Source: Pirellulales bacterium
Lineage (GTDB): Bacteria > Planctomycetota > Planctomycetia > Pirellulales > Thermoguttaceae
Length of the DNA: 64,000 nucleotides
Direction: 5' to 3'
NCBI GenBank assembly: GCA_016935315.1
Contig: JAFGRD010000039.1
Coordinates: 124,001 to 188,000 of the forward strand
In this document: in pieces, positions 19,670-30,896 of the stretch
Layout: each line of letters starts with the position of its first letter
Numbering within the stretch: the first letter of the stretch is position 1
Made by a program: the position numbers and the translations under genes
Notes under the pieces: model-generated
The model's input: the letters and a program-made list of their open reading frames with translations, nothing else
What the model was told of the DNA's origin: nothing
Database searches by the model: none

Positions 19670-21973
19670 CTATTTTTTTGCCAGCCAGGGCGCCAGAATC
19701 CGTTTGGCGCGGTTCAGAGCGCCGAGGGAACTCGTCTCCTTCTCCTGCTCTTCTTCCTCGTAGGCCATCAAATAGGAACGGAAGCTGACAAGGACTTCAC
19801 GGGCTCGCTCCTGGACATCGTTCCGACGTCGGTCGCGGTTCTTGCTGGGTCCGATTCTCAGCCTGATTCGAGTCCGCAGCACCCCGCTCGATGGCTGATC
19901 ATGGCCACGATTCTGGAATCGTTCCTCTTCAAAACGCGCGTCGACCGAAAACGTCACCGGCCGGTCGCCCAGCCGCCGCAGTCGACTGGAAGGCTGGTCG
20001 AGAATCTGCAAATGAACGTGATTACCGTCGATGTCGACGATCTTGGCTTGATGGTCGGCCACGAACCCGCGCAGCTTTTCGATCGCCATCTTGATTGGGA
20101 CGGGCGTGACCAGAACGCGTTCGAGTGCCTCTTGCGGCGGCGGGGTCTTCCTGCGCCAGAATCCGCCGGCCGTCTCGAATTCGTCGCCGCCGGAGCCTAC
20201 CCCCAGTTGCACCACGTTGTTGCGTCCTCGCTCTTTGGCCATCAGCAGCGCGCGGTCCGCGCGGCGGAGCATGGTTTCGGGTGTGTCGCCCGGCTGGATT
20301 TCAGTGACTCCGAAGCTGACGCTTGACGGCCGACCGCCCATTTTCGGCTGCGGCAACTGGCAGAGCCCCTGGCGAATGCCTTCGGCGCGTCGGGCGGCCG
20401 CCGCGTTGTCGCAATCGGCGCAGAGGATTACGAATTCTTCTCCGCCATATCGGGCCACCAGATCGCCGGGGCGACAGGAACGCTTCAGCAGCTTGGCCAG
20501 GCTCTTGATGACTTCGTCACCCGCCTGGTGCCCATAGGTATCGTTGACTTTCTTGAAGTGATCGAGGTCGCCGATAATCAGGCTGCAAGGAACCTGCTGT
20601 TGCTGATGGGCGGCCACGAACATCTCGTGGACTCGGTCGAACTCCGCCCGGTTGGCAACCTGGGTCAGCGGGTCCTTGGTGGCCTTCTCGTGCAGGCGCT
20701 GACACCGCTGCTCGAGCGAGATCTCCGAAGAGGCGTCGTGAAACAGCAGCACGGCTCCCATCGTCGTGCCGTCCTCGCCAATCACCGGGAAGGCGTGCGT
20801 GTCGACGGCTACCGGCTGCCGGGTTCGCCCCCAAATCATCAGCCTCCGCAACGACTGTACGCCGGACTGGATGGCACAGTTCACGGGGCAATCGGCTTCG
20901 TGGATCGCCTCGCCCTTCTCATCGCACATTTTCAGCAGTTCGGGAAGCCACTGCCGCTGCCGCACACTGCTGCCGGCGATTCCGGTCAGTCGCTCGGCGC
21001 CGCGGTTCCACAAAGCGATCTGTCCGGTCGCATCGATGAACACCACGGCATCGTACATGTTTTCCAACAGCTTCGCCTGAAACACGCCGTCGACGCCGTG
21101 TGACCCTGCCACGGGCGGAACACAGTTGAGCTGCCAGTGGGAGTTGGCCAGGTTCGGATCCAGCGTATTGAGCCATCGGCTGGCGACCTCGCGGCGCAGC
21201 TCCGTTTGATCACAAACGTAAAGCTCGGCGAACTGCCGAACGAGTTCGGGATCGAATTGGGTCCCCGCACAATCGAACAACTCGGTCATCGCCCGTTCAT
21301 GCGACATGGCCGAACGATAAACGTGATCAGTGACCATCGCGTCAAAGGCCTCGGCGATGGTGATCATTCGGGCGCCGAGCGGGATGTCGGTGCCGCACAG
21401 CCGGAAACCCTTCCGCGAACCGTCGTACCAAGCCCCCACATATTCGACAATGTCGAGGATGTCGGCCGACGTGCAGCTCTGGCGGAGAATCTCCAGGCTC
21501 ATTTGGCGCGATCGCGCCATCACCGCCGCTTCGTCCGGGTCGAGAACGCCGGGCTTCTGCAGGATTCTGTCAGGCGTGCCGATCACGCCGACGTCGTGCA
21601 ACAAGGCGGCGATCTCGATGGCGTCGCGTTCGGATGGGTCGAGCCCCGCCTTCAACGCCCACGCCGAACAACTCAGCGCAACCCGCAGCACGTGCTCCGC
21701 CGTGGCCACATGCTTGCACTGCAGTGCCGCGAACAGACTACTGGCGGTTCCCAGCCGCACTTGGACCAACTGATTGTCGGCCCCTGCGTGCACGGGAGCT
21801 GCGGTTCCGGCTCGGGCGCCCTTGGGATGCTCCAACTCGTGCAGCAGCGAGCCAATCTCCGCCATCCACCGATCGGGCGATGCCTGAGCGCTCCGCGCAG
21901 CCGGATCGCCAGCCGGCGACTTTCTGCCGTGGGCTTCCGGACCCGGTGTGTGCGGACTGGGAGTCTTGGCCAT
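19670..21973 (-). CDS. Degenerate HD-GYP / PAS / GGDEF diguanylate cyclase
   Basis: A 767-residue cytoplasmic protein. Residues about 85-265 resemble HD-GYP: L-L-H-D-V-G-V has His126-Asp127, but the lysine of HDxGK is lost and the later HHE site reads V-G-A, so phosphodiesterase activity is doubtful. A PAS domain spans about 305-420. GGDEF spans about 430-590 with active site G-G-E-E-F (510-514) and inhibitory site R-x-x-D at 501-504, so it should make c-di-GMP under product feedback. The C-terminal 150 residues are unrecognised. The ATG at 21973 is preferred; a GTG at 22045 would add 24 residues, and neither has a strong Shine-Dalgarno. It precedes the flagellin gene. Confidence 0.85.
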   Translation of the reverse strand: MAKTPSPHTPGPEAHGRKSPAGDPAARSAQASPDRWMAEIGSLLHELEHPKGARAGTAAPVHAGADNQLVQVRLGTASSLFAALQCKHVATAEHVLRVALSCSAWALKAGLDPSERDAIEIAALLHDVGVIGTPDRILQKPGVLDPDEAAVMARSRQMSLEILRQSCTSADILDIVEYVGAWYDGSRKGFRLCGTDIPLGARMITIAEAFDAMVTDHVYRSAMSHERAMTELFDCAGTQFDPELVRQFAELYVCDQTELRREVASRWLNTLDPNLANSHWQLNCVPPVAGSHGVDGVFQAKLLENMYDAVVFIDATGQIALWNRGAERLTGIAGSSVRQRQWLPELLKMCDEKGEAIHEADCPVNCAIQSGVQSLRRLMIWGRTRQPVAVDTHAFPVIGEDGTTMGAVLLFHDASSEISLEQRCQRLHEKATKDPLTQVANRAEFDRVHEMFVAAHQQQQVPCSLIIGDLDHFKKVNDTYGHQAGDEVIKSLAKLLKRSCRPGDLVARYGGEEFVILCADCDNAAAARRAEGIRQGLCQLPQPKMGGRPSSVSFGVTEIQPGDTPETMLRRADRALLMAKERGRNNVVQLGVGSGGDEFETAGGFWRRKTPPPQEALERVLVTPVPIKMAIEKLRGFVADHQAKIVDIDGNHVHLQILDQPSSRLRRLGDRPVTFSVDARFEEERFQNRGHDQPSSGVLRTRIRLRIGPSKNRDRRRNDVQERAREVLVSFRSYLMAYEEEEQEKETSSLGALNRAKRILAPWLAKK

Positions 21974-22380
21974 GTTTGCCGATTTCGAACGAGCGTTTTC
22001 AACAAGAAAGAGATCGGTAGCGGCCGATGCTCCGGCACGGCGCACAAATACCCCGCTTGCGCCCTGACGGTGTTGGCCGACAACACCGCTCGATATTGAA
22101 ACCTAGGTTGCGTACGGACTTCGGTCAAAGCGAATACCCCATGACCAGCATCGCCGAAGCCGAACGGAGGTGGGTTCGTTCCGGCGTGTATACACAACGC
22201 AACACGGTTGAGAATTTGCCTCGCCCAGCCGCCGAACGTTCGGCGCAATCGGCAGGAATCCCGCGTGTTCTGGCGAGCAACCGGCTCTGGCCGACGCCCC
22301 ACCTTGCCACGCGCCGGACAATCCGCTATGGTGGCGCCTTCTACGTTTTTGAATCCTGGCGAGAGAATCCGGAGCTACTG
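21974..22380. other. Divergent intergenic region
   Basis: This 407-base stretch lies between the start of the GGDEF gene (minus) and the start of the FAH-fold gene (plus). Short open frames here are not supported by codon pattern or ribosome-binding sites. It must hold both promoters, but I cannot identify convincing -35/-10 pairs. Confidence 0.4.
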
Positions 22381-23699: not shown

Positions 23700-23772
<73 letters not shown>

Positions 23773-23901
23773 CTACAGAGACCGCAGAAAGAACTGCACG
23801 CGAAACCTCGCCATCGTCTCGTTGGGCATTGTCCGCTCGGGACCCTTCCTCGCAAGCGGCTGGCGTCAATCTGCCCCTTTTTGTATCTTGGCATCGAGCA
23901 C

Positions 23902-25182
23902 ATGGACGGGCAAGGACACAGTTCCGAATTGATTCTGGTCGTTGAGGACGATCAAGCGCTGTTGAAGCTCATTCAACGGCGGCTCGGTGACAACGGGTTT
24001 CACACCGACGGCGTTACCAGCGGCGCCTCTGCTCTCCGGTGGCTGCAGGAGCACTCTACCCGGCTGATGTTGTTGGACTACAGCCTGCCCGACATGATGG
24101 GAGAGGAACTGCTTCGGCAGCTTGAAGCAAAAGGCTTGAGGGTACCATTCGTGGTAGCCACTGGGCATGGCAGCGAAACGGTTGCCGTGGAGATGATGAA
24201 GCGCGGGGCCCGAGATTATCTGATCAAGGGCGCCTCGTTCCTGAAGCTGCTCCCAACGGTCGTGGGCCAGACGCTAACGCAACTGGACCAGGAGCGGCGC
24301 CTGGCCGAAGCGGAGGAGGAACTGCGACGAGCACACGACGAGTTGGAGCGGCGCGTGCAGCAGCGGACCGCGGAACTGGCCGAGGCAAACGCCAAGCTGC
24401 GCGCGGAAATGGAGGAACGCCGGCGTGCTGAGGAGCGGGCCAGTCAACACCAGGCGGAATTGGCCCATTTTGCCCGTCTCAGCACGGTGGGGGAAATGGT
24501 AGCGGAACTCGCCCATGAGTTGAATCAACCGTTGGCGGCAATCTCCAGCTACGCACAAGCCTGCGCTCGGTTGCTGCGATCGTCCCGCGAGGACAGCACC
24601 GAAGACCTGGTCGCCTCCGTCCGGCAAGTGGTCGAGCAGGCCGAACGGGCGGCGGAGATCATTCGGCGGCTTCGGCGCTTCGTCAAGAAAGGCAAACCCA
24701 GTCGCACCGCACTCGATCTGAGCGTGCTAGTGCGTGAGATTGCGGCGATCGTCGAGGTCGAGGCTCGTACCGTACGAGTCGATCTACGTTTCGACCTGCT
24801 CGAACCCTGTCCGCCCGTGATGGCCGATCGAATTCAGATTGAACAAGTGCTGATCAACCTGATCCGCAACGGTTTGGAGGCGATGCGGGAATCTCAGGGC
24901 GGGCGTCGTATCTTGACAATCGAGACCCGCGTGGCCGACGGGCAGCATCTGGAGGTGGCCGTACATGATCAGGGCGTGGGAATTCCGCCCGACATGATGA
25001 AACGGGTGTTCGAGCGGTACTTCACCACGAAACCCCATGGCATCGGAATGGGATTGCCGATCAGTCGGTCCATCGTGGAGAGCCATGGGGGGCGTCTCGG
25101 GGTGACTTCCGATCCCCAATCCGGCACCACGTTCCGCTTTCACTTGCCGATCTTCAGCGAGGACCGTCCCAGTGGACCGTAG
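23902..25182 (+). CDS. Receiver / histidine kinase hybrid, FixL-type transmitter
   Basis: A 426-residue soluble protein. An N-terminal receiver (about 8-125) has acidic E-D-D (15-17), phosphoacceptor Asp59 in M-L-L-D-Y and Lys109. A long charged coiled coil spans about 128-188. HisKA carries His205 in E-L-A-H-E-L-N-Q-P-L, typical of the FixL/DctB group. The HATPase domain has N-L-I-R-N-G, D-Q-G-V-G-I and G-I-G-M-G-L. With no membrane segment or sensor, it probably receives phosphate from another kinase and relays it. The ATG at 23902 is preferred; a TTG at 23881 would add seven residues. It overlaps the next gene by 11 bases. Confidence 0.88.
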   Translation: MDGQGHSSELILVVEDDQALLKLIQRRLGDNGFHTDGVTSGASALRWLQEHSTRLMLLDYSLPDMMGEELLRQLEAKGLRVPFVVATGHGSETVAVEMMKRGARDYLIKGASFLKLLPTVVGQTLTQLDQERRLAEAEEELRRAHDELERRVQQRTAELAEANAKLRAEMEERRRAEERASQHQAELAHFARLSTVGEMVAELAHELNQPLAAISSYAQACARLLRSSREDSTEDLVASVRQVVEQAERAAEIIRRLRRFVKKGKPSRTALDLSVLVREIAAIVEVEARTVRVDLRFDLLEPCPPVMADRIQIEQVLINLIRNGLEAMRESQGGRRILTIETRVADGQHLEVAVHDQGVGIPPDMMKRVFERYFTTKPHGIGMGLPISRSIVESHGGRLGVTSDPQSGTTFRFHLPIFSEDRPSGP

Positions 25183-25819
25183 GGCGACCGTCTTCATCGT
25201 CGATGACGACCCGGCCGTACGTCAGGGTTTGTCGTTGCTGGTCCGGTCGATGCAATTGCTGCCCGAAACGTACGCTTCGGGCCAGGAATTCCTCAACGCC
25301 TGTGATCCGTCCCGACGGGGATGTCTGCTGCTGGATGTGCGGATGCCGGGAATCAGCGGGCTGGAATTGCTCGACCGGCTCGTTGAGCGGGGGCCTCATC
25401 CGCCGGTGATCCTTATCTCTGCCTATGGTGACGTGCCGACAGTCGTGCGGGCGATGAAGGCGGGGGCGGTGAGCTTCCTGGAGAAGCCGTGCCGGGACCA
25501 GCAACTCTGGGAGGCTATCCAAGACGCACTGGAATGTGATGCCAGAAACCGGCGTCAGGCTGCTCTGCGGGCCGCTTTGGACCAGCGCCTCGCGCGGCTG
25601 TCGGACGGCGAGCGAGACGTGCTCGAAATGCTCGTGGAGGGCGAATCGAACAAGGTCATCGCTGCCCGGCTGGGGCTCAGCATCCGTACGATTGAGGTCC
25701 GCCGCGCCAAAATCATGCGAAAAATGAAGGCCGAGACACTGGCAGATCTGATAAGATTGGCGCTTTCCGCGCGACTCCCTTGCGCAAAACCACATGCCGG
25801 CTTCGGAAACTACCATTAA
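25172..25819 (+). CDS. FixJ/NarL-type response regulator
   Basis: A 215-residue protein starting at GTG inside the last codons of the kinase gene, which implies coupled translation. The receiver (about 5-120) has D-D-D at 11-13, phosphoacceptor Asp55 in L-L-L-D-V-R-M-P, and Lys near residue 105. The C-terminal LuxR-type helix-turn-helix (about 145-205) reads L-S-D-G-E-R-D-V-L-E-M-L-V-E-G and I-R-T-I-E-V-R-R-A-K. It should be the DNA-binding partner of the upstream kinase. Target genes are unknown. Confidence 0.92.
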   Translation: MDRRATVFIVDDDPAVRQGLSLLVRSMQLLPETYASGQEFLNACDPSRRGCLLLDVRMPGISGLELLDRLVERGPHPPVILISAYGDVPTVVRAMKAGAVSFLEKPCRDQQLWEAIQDALECDARNRRQAALRAALDQRLARLSDGERDVLEMLVEGESNKVIAARLGLSIRTIEVRRAKIMRKMKAETLADLIRLALSARLPCAKPHAGFGNYH

Positions 25820-26125
25820 GTCCCTCCGATTGCCGTACGATGTAAGGTATAAAGGGTTATATGGGGATGGAAGCCGGCACCGTGCGGCGTACAGACCATT
25901 GAAGCCCGGGTTCTGGCCGAGAATAGCCCAAGTCGAGCTTGCACCGGCGGCCAGAGCCCTTTTCTTTGACGCGGCGCCATGGGCCCAAGACCCCCTATCT
26001 TTGGTGCCTCATCGCAGCAGGGATCGAACTTCCGCAACATGGCGAGTCGAGGGCTTTCTGCACAAGCCCAGTCAGAAGAAGGACCCGCCGAAAACTCGAA
26101 ACACGACCATCCGGGGCTTTGTTTC
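25820..26125. other. Intergenic region upstream of the ATPase-like/receiver gene
   Basis: This 306-base stretch has an AT-richer patch near 25840-25870 (GTATAAAGGGTTATATGG) that could be promoter DNA. The frame of the next gene stays open back to 25979, but that part looks non-coding. Nothing else is recognised. Confidence 0.35.
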
Positions 26126-27166
26126 ATGAAGTCTACCTCGAAGCGGCATCAGCCACCGACTGTGAATCGGCCCGACCAACTCGCTTCAGCAACCGGGCAA
26201 CAGGCGGCCCGCGTTCCGTGCTCCTGGCAGGAACTTCTGGCGGAAGTCCTCGAAGCAATTCTGCCGATGGCCGAGAGCAAGGCAGTAGCTCTCGATCACC
26301 AGTACTGCGGTCCGCCTCCCATAACGATCGTTGCAGATTCGGCGTGTGTTCGACAAGCGCTCACTTGCTTGATCACCGGCGCCATCGCCTTGAGCGAAAC
26401 CACCGCGCTTCGCCTTTTGACTCGGCTGGTTGACGATGCAGAGGCGGAGACGACCTTGCGTTTCGACGTCGTCGATCCCGGCACGAATCTCTGCGACGCT
26501 CGGATCCGCCAGTTGCTGTACCCGCTTTGCGAAGTCTCCCAGCCGGATGCCGCAGAGACGCACACCCGTGAATTCTGGCTGTCCACGTCGAAGCGGTTGG
26601 CGCAGCAGTTGGGCGGAGACTTGACCATCGGGCCCTTGCCCGAGGGAACCCGATACCGACTGACCTTCGCTGCCGGACGAAGCGCCGATTCGGTCTCCAG
26701 ACCGCGGCACGACGCCTCTGACGTTCGGCCGCGTTCAACGGATCGTGCGTGCGCCGCGTCCGCTGAGACGTGCCTCGACTGCCGTGTCCTGCTGGTGGAA
26801 GACAACGAAGACCATCAGCCGCTGCTGTCGCGGATTCTCAGCAAGGTCGGTTCCCACGTAACCGTTGCCGAAAACGGAAAAGTGGCACTCGAATTGGCGA
26901 ACGTCGCCCGCGAGAAGGGAAGGCCGTTCGACGCGATCTTGATGGACGTGCAAATGCCTGTCCTTGATGGGTTGACTGCCACCCGAATGTTGCGCTCAAA
27001 CGGCATTGCGACTCCGATCATTGCGGTCAGCGCCCGGGCCGTGTCTACCGACCGCCAGAAGTGCTTTGACGCCGGCTGCGACGATTTCGTATCGAAGCCC
27101 GTCAATCGGGGGGAACTTGTGCGGCTGTTGGCCAGCCATGTCGGCCGAACGGCGGCGCCCGACTGA
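26126..27166 (+). CDS. Decayed histidine-kinase ATPase domain fused to a receiver
   Basis: A 346-residue soluble protein. Residues about 35-185 align by pattern with a HATPase domain: R-Q-A-L-T-C-L-I-T-G-A at the N box, D-P-G-T-N at the G1 box, and S-T-S-K-R-L-A-Q-Q-L-G-G-D-L-T-I near its end. The N-box Asn and the G1 glycine pattern are lost, and there is no HisKA domain or phosphoacceptor His. Residues about 218-342 are a receiver with intact Asp274 (L-M-D-V-Q-M-P) and Lys324. The ATG at 26126 is chosen because upstream codons are low-complexity; no clear Shine-Dalgarno supports it. It probably acts as a phosphate sink or protein-binding regulator; this is inference. Confidence 0.7.
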   Translation: MKSTSKRHQPPTVNRPDQLASATGQQAARVPCSWQELLAEVLEAILPMAESKAVALDHQYCGPPPITIVADSACVRQALTCLITGAIALSETTALRLLTRLVDDAEAETTLRFDVVDPGTNLCDARIRQLLYPLCEVSQPDAAETHTREFWLSTSKRLAQQLGGDLTIGPLPEGTRYRLTFAAGRSADSVSRPRHDASDVRPRSTDRACAASAETCLDCRVLLVEDNEDHQPLLSRILSKVGSHVTVAENGKVALELANVAREKGRPFDAILMDVQMPVLDGLTATRMLRSNGIATPIIAVSARAVSTDRQKCFDAGCDDFVSKPVNRGELVRLLASHVGRTAAPD

Positions 27167-27416: not shown

Positions 27417-30400
27417 TTGCACCTAGAGCCGCTGGAAGACCGACTCTTCCTTAGCGCGGCGTCCATGCTGCCGGTGGTCTCGCCGGCGTGGTTTCAGGAT
27501 TTCACCGGCCCCGGTACAGTGAGTCACGTCAACCCGGCGCCGTTCTCCGCGGCCCAAGTGGGCATCTCGGGTGCAGCCACGGATTCCGACGCGTCCGGCG
27601 CGGAGTTCTCTGACTGGATCGTCCGTTTTACCGCCGAGTCGCTGCAGGGCGTCGCGTCGGCCGACCAGACGGTGAGCCTGCTGGCCGGCGGCGGAGTGCA
27701 ATTCGAGGTGCTCCGCGGCCTCGGGCTGGTGGGCCAGGTGCTCGTTCGCAGTTCGGGAGCCGCATCCGACAACGTTGCCGGTTGGCTCGACCAAAACACG
27801 CACGTCGCCAGCTACGAATTGGACGTGGTGCAAAAGCTTCAGGCCACACCGGACGATCCGCAATACGAGCGGCTTTGGGGCCTGGAAAACGCGGGCCAGA
27901 CCGGCGGCACCGCGGGCGCCGACATCGAGGCCGAAGCGGCTTGGGACATTTCCACCGGCGCCGGCAGCATCGTCGTCGGGGTCATCGACACGGGCGTTGA
28001 TTATACGCACCCCGACCTGGCGGCGAACATCTGGACCAATCCCGGGGAGATCGCCGGCAACGGCTTCGACGACGACGGCAACGGGTTTGTCGACGATGTC
28101 CATGGTTACGATTTCGTCAACAACGACGGCGACCCGATGGACGACCACAACCACGGTACGCACGTCGCCGGCACGATCGCGGCGGAAGGCAACAACGGGT
28201 CGGGAATCGTCGGTGTGAACTGGTCCAGTTCGATCATGGGCCTGAAATTCCTCTCGGCCAGCGGTTCGGGATACACCTCGGACGCCGTGCGAGCGGTCAA
28301 CTATGCGACCATGATGCGCACGCAATACGGCGTGAACGTACGCCTGACCAACAACAGTTGGGGCGGCGGCGGGTACAGTTCCGCACTGGCGGCCGCGATT
28401 GCCGCCGGGGGCGACGCCGGCATGCTCTTCGTAGCTGCCGCCGGAAACGACGGCGCCAACAACGACCTTTCGCCCCATTATCCGTCAGATTACGAATTGC
28501 CCAACGTCCTTTCCGTCGCCGCCAGCGACGATGCGGACAACCTCGCGTGGTTCAGCAACTACGGTGTCTCCACGGTTCATCTGGCAGCCCCGGGTGTGTC
28601 GATCTATAGCACGATCACCGGCGGCGGCTACGCATCGTATTCCGGCACGAGCATGGCGACGCCCCACGTGTCCGGCGTCGCGGCGCTGGCCTGGTCCGTT
28701 ACCCCGACGGCAACCGTCGCCGAGATCCGCGGCGCGATTCTGCAAGGGACCGACGTGCTGGCCTCCTTGAGCGGAACCACGACCACCGGAGGACGACTGA
28801 ACGCCTACCATACGCTGCAGCTTGTCGGTAGCCCCGATCCCGAACAGCCTGTGGTCGGGTCGCTGCTGGCCAGCCCCCGTCGCACCGCAGCGGGCATGAG
28901 CGTTGCGATTGCGGCTCACAGCGTGTCGGATCCCGATGGCAGCGTCTCGGCCGTCTACTTCTACCGGGACACGGACTCCAATGGAGTGTGGGGCGAGACG
29001 GATGCACTGTTGGGAATCGATACGACGGTGATCGATTCGGAAGCCGGCATCGTCTACGACACGACGAGCCTGACGCCGGGAACCTACGGCCTGTTCGCCC
29101 GGGCCGTCGACAACGATCTGAATTGGAGCGACGCCCGCACGACCTTCCTGGAAATCGTCGCGCCCGACGATCATGGCGACAATGCGGCCACCGCCACCTT
29201 GGTGGCGGTGGGCAGTACGGCAACTGGAACCATCGACTCGCAAGACGATCAGGACTGGTTTGCGCTGGACGCCGTGGCAGGCGCGGGCTACTGCTTCACG
29301 ACGGAACTGCTCACGTTGACAGACTCCATGCTGATGCTCTACGACCAGGACGGCGTGACGCTGCTGGCATGGGACGACGACGGCGGCCCCGGGTATGCCT
29401 CGAGCATCTTCTGGACAGCCGACGCCAGCGGCACGTATTTCCTCTCGGTCCTGCCCTATCCAGGCGAGGGAGCGGGCGACTATGTCCTGAATCTGCTTGA
29501 ATCGACCGACGACCACGGCGACAACGCCCCCTCCGCGACCGTGGTCTTTCCCGGCAGCTCCACCGGCGGCGTGGTGGATCACGCGGGCGACGTGGATTTC
29601 TTCGCCTTCGACGCGGTCGCCGGTCGTCGCTACACCATCGAAACGACGCTGCTCGCGTTGAACGATTCCGTACTGTCGCTGTACGGTCAAGACGGCTCGA
29701 CGCGAATCGGCTACGATGACGATAGTGGAGAGTCTTTGGGATCACGGCTGGTCTGGGCGGCACCGGCCAGCGGTACCTATTACGCGGCCGTCGAGGCGTT
29801 CGACTCGGAAGAATGCGGAAGCTACCTCCTCGAGTTGCGGCAGAGCGCCCCGCAGCGACTCGGAACCGTCGACTTTCACGCCATCGTCGTTCCCGGCTCG
29901 GCGGACCTGGATCAGTGGTACCGACTGGAGACCGCGCACGACGGATGGTTGACCATCGAAACCGACTTCACTGGGGCGTACGGCGGAGTCGAGTTGGAGT
30001 TGTTCGGCGGCGATCTGCGCGAACTGGCCGTTTCCAGCAGCTACAGCGGTGCCGATCGCATCGACTGGGACGTCCACGCCGGCGAAACGTTTTACGTGAG
30101 CGTCATCGGCAGTGTCTCTGGCGGGACCCTCCGCCTTGCCAACCTTGTCGAGCAGGACGGCAGCACCGTGACCGTCTGCGGCACGGACTTCAACGATGAG
30201 CTTCAGTTCACGGCAGGCGAATTGCACCAGGTGGTGATCAACGACGTTTCATACTCCTTCGACTGCGCCGGAGTGACGCAGATCGCCTTTGGGGGCGGCA
30301 CAGGCAGTGATTCGGCGACGTTGCTGGGGACGGCAGCCACGGAGACGGCTGTCATGGCTCCGAATTCCGCTACCTTAAGCGGCTCGCAATATACGGCCAC

Positions 30401-30896
30401 CGTCTCGAACGTCGCCGAGATCCTCATTCGTGGCGGTGGCGGCAACGACGCCGCCCACCTGTACGACTCGGCCGGAGATGATACGTTCATCGCCACGCCC
30501 GACTATGCCCGTCTATACGGTGACGGGTTCTGCAACCAGGTCGAGGCGTTCCCGACCTTGGCCTTCTACGCGACCGGCGGCGGGATCGATCAGGCCTATT
30601 CGGGGCCGAGCCAGCCTTCCCTGAGCAGCTCGGAAGAGGGGTCTGCGGCCGATCCGAACGCTCTCTCCGTGGAACTTCCGGGGCAATCGGCGGCGGCGGC
30701 CGAATCTCGGCCGCGAGATCCGGTCGCGGCTGCCCCGGCCATCCGAACGCTGGCCTATGACCTTCTTTACGAAGCCGCCTCCCCCGTTTCGGGCCGGCGG
30801 TGGGAAGCCTGCTCGCTGAACGCCGGAACGGACTCTCATCGCGCCAAGCTCGTGGATTGGGCCCTGGAAGCCGACGCCGATTGGCTTGCCGCTTGA
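27417..30896 (+). CDS. Large secreted subtilisin-like serine protease with pre-peptidase repeats
   Basis: About 1159 residues from a TTG codon. Near the N-terminus, L-E-P-L-E-D-R-L-F-L-S-A (3-14) is the planctomycete surface-protein motif. The S8 catalytic triad is Asp191 (V-I-D-T-G-V-D-Y), His246 (N-H-G-T-H-V-A-G) and Ser412 (S-G-T-S-M-A-T-P). Three PPC-like beta domains follow (about 580-860), two starting D-D-H-G-D-N. No peptide is visible for classical Sec cleavage. The true start is uncertain: the frame is open back to 27270 and encodes an Arg-rich segment before L-E-P-L, but I see no ATG, GTG or TTG in it. Confidence 0.82.
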   Translation: MHLEPLEDRLFLSAASMLPVVSPAWFQDFTGPGTVSHVNPAPFSAAQVGISGAATDSDASGAEFSDWIVRFTAESLQGVASADQTVSLLAGGGVQFEVLRGLGLVGQVLVRSSGAASDNVAGWLDQNTHVASYELDVVQKLQATPDDPQYERLWGLENAGQTGGTAGADIEAEAAWDISTGAGSIVVGVIDTGVDYTHPDLAANIWTNPGEIAGNGFDDDGNGFVDDVHGYDFVNNDGDPMDDHNHGTHVAGTIAAEGNNGSGIVGVNWSSSIMGLKFLSASGSGYTSDAVRAVNYATMMRTQYGVNVRLTNNSWGGGGYSSALAAAIAAGGDAGMLFVAAAGNDGANNDLSPHYPSDYELPNVLSVAASDDADNLAWFSNYGVSTVHLAAPGVSIYSTITGGGYASYSGTSMATPHVSGVAALAWSVTPTATVAEIRGAILQGTDVLASLSGTTTTGGRLNAYHTLQLVGSPDPEQPVVGSLLASPRRTAAGMSVAIAAHSVSDPDGSVSAVYFYRDTDSNGVWGETDALLGIDTTVIDSEAGIVYDTTSLTPGTYGLFARAVDNDLNWSDARTTFLEIVAPDDHGDNAATATLVAVGSTATGTIDSQDDQDWFALDAVAGAGYCFTTELLTLTDSMLMLYDQDGVTLLAWDDDGGPGYASSIFWTADASGTYFLSVLPYPGEGAGDYVLNLLESTDDHGDNAPSATVVFPGSSTGGVVDHAGDVDFFAFDAVAGRRYTIETTLLALNDSVLSLYGQDGSTRIGYDDDSGESLGSRLVWAAPASGTYYAAVEAFDSEECGSYLLELRQSAPQRLGTVDFHAIVVPGSADLDQWYRLETAHDGWLTIETDFTGAYGGVELELFGGDLRELAVSSSYSGADRIDWDVHAGETFYVSVIGSVSGGTLRLANLVEQDGSTVTVCGTDFNDELQFTAGELHQVVINDVSYSFDCAGVTQIAFGGGTGSDSATLLGTAATETAVMAPNSATLSGSQYTATVSNVAEILIRGGGGNDAAHLYDSAGDDTFIATPDYARLYGDGFCNQVEAFPTLAFYATGGGIDQAYSGPSQPSLSSSEEGSAADPNALSVELPGQSAAAAESRPRDPVAAAPAIRTLAYDLLYEAASPVSGRRWEACSLNAGTDSHRAKLVDWALEADADWLAA
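29160..29860 (+). repeat. Pre-peptidase C-terminal (PPC) domain repeats in the protease
   Basis: Two homologous coding units start at D-D-H-G-D-N-A-A-T-A and D-D-H-G-D-N-A-P-S-A. Each includes an S-x-L-x-L-Y-x-Q-D-G segment and G-T-Y-F/Y. A third, more diverged unit follows the second. They encode the beta-sandwich modules after the catalytic domain. Confidence 0.65.

Follow-up and report, generated by a model that had tools for sequence, protein, structure and literature searches.

Organization of the locus

The locus was analyzed within a window of 64,000 nt from a planctomycete genome assembly, by which we mean the whole stretch of DNA under study. Between positions 23902 and 27166, three genes follow one another on the forward strand, with the following features:

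23902..25182, + strand: sensor histidine kinase gene (HK), 426 aa (Pfam, orthologue alignment)
25172..25819, + strand: FixJ/TtrR-like response regulator gene (RR), 215 aa (Pfam, NCBIfam, orthologue alignment)
25820..26125, + strand: gap between RR and the third gene, 306 nt, flanking genes on the same strand
26126..27166, + strand: third gene, degenerate ATPase (CA) domain plus receiver, 346 aa from the preferred start (homology, codon-position GC, AlphaFold2)
26201..26695, + strand: pseudo-CA domain of the third protein, residues 26-190 (alignment with homologues)
26774..27163, + strand: receiver of the third protein, residues 217-346 (alignment, tree)

Just 5′ of the HK gene lies a tRNA-Arg gene (CCT anticodon; 23700-23773, +). 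The third gene is adjoined by a large subtilisin-like protease frame (27417-30896, +) that carries the motif LEPLEDRLFLS close to its beginning, and 19670-22045 (-) codes for a single protein with an HD-GYP-like HD domain, PAS and GGDEF.

The kinase and the regulator form a two-component pair

The HK protein starts with a receiver (D59), which is followed by a coiled-coil linker, a HisKA domain (H205) and a HATPase_c domain with intact N and G boxes. Pfam placed Response_reg at residues 11-116 (E 3.8e-22), HisKA at residues 197-263 (E 8e-11) and HATPase_c at residues 309-416 (E 3.5e-25). The RR protein joins a Response_reg domain (D55) to a LuxR/GerE HTH, and its gene shares 11 nt with that of the kinase (25172-25182). 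These domains, together with the overlap, bear out an earlier interpretation of the DNA (the sequence-only reading), in which the two genes were taken for a two-component pair. The extra N-terminal receiver which it assigned to the kinase is likewise present and is kept in 7/7 orthologues. Alignment of all orthologues showed that H205 and D59 of HK and D55 of RR are invariant. At residue 82, within the N-terminal receiver, the stretch PFVVATGH is close to the FATGUY motif PFxFATG(G/Y) of MrrA/SdrG-type receivers.

The same reading had called the pair FixL/FixJ-like, which holds in part. Similarity of the kinase core and of the regulator was observed, as the best NCBIfam matches were the FixL model for HK (241 bits vs. 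a curated cut-off of 850, kinase core only) and the FixJ model for RR (214.5 bits vs. a curated cut-off of 255). Yet, both scores lie below the cut-offs, and a PAS/heme domain was not found: Pfam gave no PAS match in HK, which has the N-terminal receiver there instead. Judged by its architecture and best match, RR can be described as FixJ-like, but its score falls short of membership of FixJ proper.

The third gene couples a degenerate ATPase domain to an intact receiver

For the third gene two starts were considered, one at 25979, giving a longer frame of 395 aa, and an ATG at 26126, giving 346 aa. The latter was preferred because the region 25979-26125 has neither a coding-like codon-position GC (0.61/0.55/0.55) nor homology. 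This start puts the phospho-Asp of the third protein at D274, matching the numbering used in the sequence-only reading. Examination of all frames 5′ of the gene revealed no HisKA remnant.

The N-terminal part of the third protein gave a weak Pfam match to HATPase_c (E 0.012, below the curated cut-off), and no HisKA match was obtained with Pfam. The N-box Asn, present in 43/43 homologues spanning that column, is replaced by Gly (residue 85), and alignment with these 43 homologues revealed no compensating Asn in the CA domain. The claim that the HATPase domain lacks both the N-box Asn and HisKA was thus confirmed, and its interpretation as a dead ATPase stands. The G2-box glycines 146, 147, 149 and 151 are absent and G121 is changed to Asn, with D117 and G119 retained. 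Further conserved positions were lost (N81, K88, F131, F134), and many hydrophobic and structural positions remain. When scored at the 65 CA positions conserved at 80% or more in the 43 homologues, the third protein retains 45% of them vs. at least 83% (median 94%) in the homologues, and its branch in the CA tree has a length of 9.0 vs. a median of 0.39. These residues suggest that the pseudo-CA domain has lost the ordinary mode of ATP binding.

Given an alignment, AlphaFold2 predicted the CA fold (core pLDDT about 83-96) and the receiver with confidence, and the linker between them with low confidence. Foldseek matches of the modelled CA domain include the catalytic domains of RetS, HK853 and ETR1, so the domain is predicted to have the overall GHKL/CA fold. 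The model rests heavily on homologues, since a single-sequence run gave neither the CA nor the receiver fold. A second look with VIA-align returned a match list filled by receivers alone and was uninformative on the CA domain.

The receiver of the third protein gave a strong Pfam match (E 4.9e-25). It had been described before as intact, and indeed the phosphorylation site is complete, with the acidic pair E225/D226, D274, S302 and K324. It retains 78% of conserved positions, and its end branch in the tree is 0.54.

The third protein descends from a hybrid kinase

Searches of the window's own genome and 60 relatives revealed many homologues whose alignment covers the third protein from about residue 26 up to its C-terminus, at ~35-41% identity. 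For most relatives the E values were 1e-40 or better, which leaves no room for chance, and most of the homologues sit in open frames of 600-1300 codons, like full hybrid kinases. The best full-length NCBIfam matches were also hybrid kinases (e.g. TorS, ArcB), with the top score for BarA. Because the homology is collinear and near full-length, and because these models agree with it, the third protein is the C-terminal CA-receiver half of an ordinary ArcB/BarA/TorS-type hybrid kinase. With such kinases, including the family's own, it shares the CA-linker-receiver order; it differs from them in having neither sensor nor HisKA, a destroyed ATP site and a changed receiver helix 1. Origin from the CA domain of the neighbouring HK was rejected, as the similarity is not significant and the lineage differs.

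We also fetched eight other short CA-receiver frames without HisKA from relatives. Six of them lie on contigs ending shortly 5′ of the frame and are therefore probably truncated. The remaining two are contig-internal and proved to be a CBS-CBS-receiver protein and a receiver with a different N-terminus. In the former (L136 1362-2240 (-), genome G022), two CBS-like domains, as read from the sequence, are fused to a similar hybrid-kinase-type receiver, a new context for it.

In two relatives the receiver alone accompanies the pair

Six further genomes of the family (G004, G068, G117, G013, G002, G035) have orthologous HK-RR pairs with ~60% identity; a search of 396 genomes belonging to the order, together with a contig scan, added no clear one. 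Directly 3′ of the pair, G013 carries a stand-alone receiver with 67% identity to that of the third protein (L048 5128-5574, gap 80 nt), and G068 one with 59% identity (L061 3403-3831, gap 106 nt). The gap in the window is longer than these two, and a separate promoter could be present in it; a scan of its 306 nt for a sigma-70-like promoter or terminator gave nothing above chance. The third gene is missing beside the pair in the other four relatives (G004, G117, G002, G035), and G004 has lost it cleanly, whereas its congener G068 has it. The CA half is linked to the pair in none of the six. A search for the same trio in relatives thus found the receiver linked in 2/6, which leaves the sequence-only reading unrefuted as regards the receiver, and the ATPase half unlinked everywhere seen: the conserved linked unit is HK-RR-receiver, without the ATPase part.

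In the receiver tree, the sequences from the window, G013 and G068 form one clade (support 100/99.9) nested among hybrid-kinase receivers. All three known members of this clade, each from a different genus, adjoin an HK-RR pair, and the best matches in 119 genomes of the family include no unlinked one. The two stand-alone receivers retain 81 and 79% of conserved positions, and the phospho-chemistry residues are kept in all three. In the three linked receivers, helix 1 and the surroundings of beta4-alpha4 do not follow the consensus of the hybrid kinases, and H230, L234, R304 and F321 are identical among the three. Helix 1 of the receiver is a main contact with the HisKA bundle of the kinase in HK-RR complexes, so its alteration fits a change of partner.

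Three relatives have glcD/glcE/glcF-like (glycolate oxidase) genes 3′ of the pair (L048 in G013, L050 in G002, L051 in G035; names read from frames), and these neighbours hint at the pair's regulon. No glcD was found in the window. The closest relative of RR (66%) is encoded at L052 4188-4838 (-) in G022, within about 300 nt of the contig end and with no kinase reading visible upstream; it is possibly an orphan regulator or reflects an assembly break.

In the tree of kinase plus regulator, the six relatives form a clade (support 95/93), and the sequence from the window branches off outside it. In the simplest history, an ArcB/BarA-type hybrid kinase would have lost its sensor and HisKA, and the resulting CA-receiver fragment would have been placed beside the pair; the CA part would then have been lost in the ancestor of the other six and the receiver repeatedly thereafter. 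A receiver could also have been re-fused to a new CA domain, but this needs more steps, because CA and receiver are collinear with hybrid kinases. Set side by side, this locus and those of the relatives resemble steps by which a hybrid kinase falls apart: CA-receiver (window), stand-alone receiver (G013, G068) and nothing (the four others), each time beside the conserved HK-RR pair. Hybrid kinases may in this way give rise to accessory receivers of the FixT/Osp kind that are re-aimed at a new kinase.

Comparison with known systems

Among known proteins, RetS of Pseudomonas aeruginosa comes closest to the third protein as a whole; it has a degenerate HATPase plus receivers and drains and inhibits another kinase (PMC5992135; PMC12189002). 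Its receiver 2 accepts phosphoryl groups from GacS, and RetS also blocks GacS autophosphorylation (PMC5992135). A degenerate HATPase, a receiver and a proposed action on another kinase are common to RetS and the third protein. RetS, however, is full-length, with HisKA and two receivers, whereas the third protein has no HisKA and so could not heterodimerise through it. That a catalytic fold can serve signalling without kinase activity is known from the pseudokinase DivL (PMC4211667), which consists of DHp, CA and PAS, in contrast to the CA domain with receiver seen here.

Single-receiver inhibitors are known as well: FixT inhibits FixL, with phosphorylation of S. meliloti FixT undetected and no competing-receiver action (PMC7078487), and Osp inhibits CckA (PMC9430884). 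The locus resembles FixL-FixJ-FixT and CckA-Osp in combining a kinase-regulator circuit with a putative accessory receiver protein, and has a FixL-type kinase core and a FixJ-type regulator. It differs from them in that a search for a PAS/heme domain gave none, the phosphorylation residues of the receiver are retained and a pseudo-CA domain is attached.

In the literature searched we found no description of a HisKA-less pseudo-CA-receiver protein or of its combination with a kinase-regulator pair, which is weak evidence of absence. The earlier statement that no described system is known to have such a layout applies to the combination; its parts are each known, the third protein being a common hybrid-kinase half. 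It is best filed as a variant of accessory receivers (FixT/Osp-type) and pseudokinases (RetS/DivL-type).

Proposed role of the third protein

We propose, with a probability of about 0.5, that the locus comprises a conserved pair and an accessory receiver derived from a hybrid-kinase fragment, which would compete for the phosphoryl group and/or bind HK. The adjacent HK would autophosphorylate at H205, and D274 of the third protein would compete with D55 of RR and D59 of HK for the phosphoryl group; by this and/or by binding HK the third protein would tune or drain the signal. The pseudo-CA domain would be a vestige or a docking surface. Our best guess is therefore the sink or adaptor role put forward in the sequence-only reading. 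The domains, the descent, the linkage, the lost ATP-site residues and the intact receiver are shown by the sequence data; which partner the third protein acts on, in which direction and with what sign we infer from sequence, HK being chosen because of the gene neighbourhood. A phosphate-competing receiver is preferred because the phosphorylation site is intact in all three linked receivers. The third gene is not essential to the pair, since 4/6 relatives manage without it.

The main rival, possible but doubtful, is a FixT/Osp-like feedback brake, in which the third protein would bind the kinase core and stop autophosphorylation without taking phosphate. FixT and Osp, as single receivers acting on FixL and CckA, offer models for it, and the kinase core of HK is closest to FixL; FixT, however, is not a competing receiver, whereas the three orthologues at this locus and in the relatives, though diverged, have lost none of the phosphorylation residues. 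RetS could also serve as a model for a trans-acting inhibitor cut down to CA and receiver, whose pseudo-CA domain, freed from HisKA, would be kept for docking or sensing and would aim the receiver at a foreign kinase; we regard this as unlikely. The pseudo-CA domain, known from one sequence only, may be plain decay.

Decay could even extend to the whole gene, which would then be a hybrid-kinase fragment on its way to loss, its CA part junk and its receiver without a present role in the window's genome. The strong erosion of the CA domain (45% of conserved positions; branch 9.0) would agree with this, as would the clean loss in G004 vs. its congener and the absence from G117, G002 and G035. We nevertheless hold it improbable, as the frame stays fully open through all 346 codons, the receiver is constrained, with its active-site residues intact, and an equivalent receiver is retained beside the pair in two other genera. 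It is very unlikely that the third protein is an unrelated neighbour serving another kinase, for example a hybrid kinase of its parent lineage. Its receiver does descend from that lineage and from neither receiver of the pair; yet, the linkage in three genera, the lack of unlinked clade members among the best matches in the family and the departure of helix 1 from the consensus of the hybrid kinases all speak against such a role. The preferred reading, an accessory receiver competing for the phosphoryl group and/or binding HK, concerns a three-protein system small enough for phosphotransfer assays.
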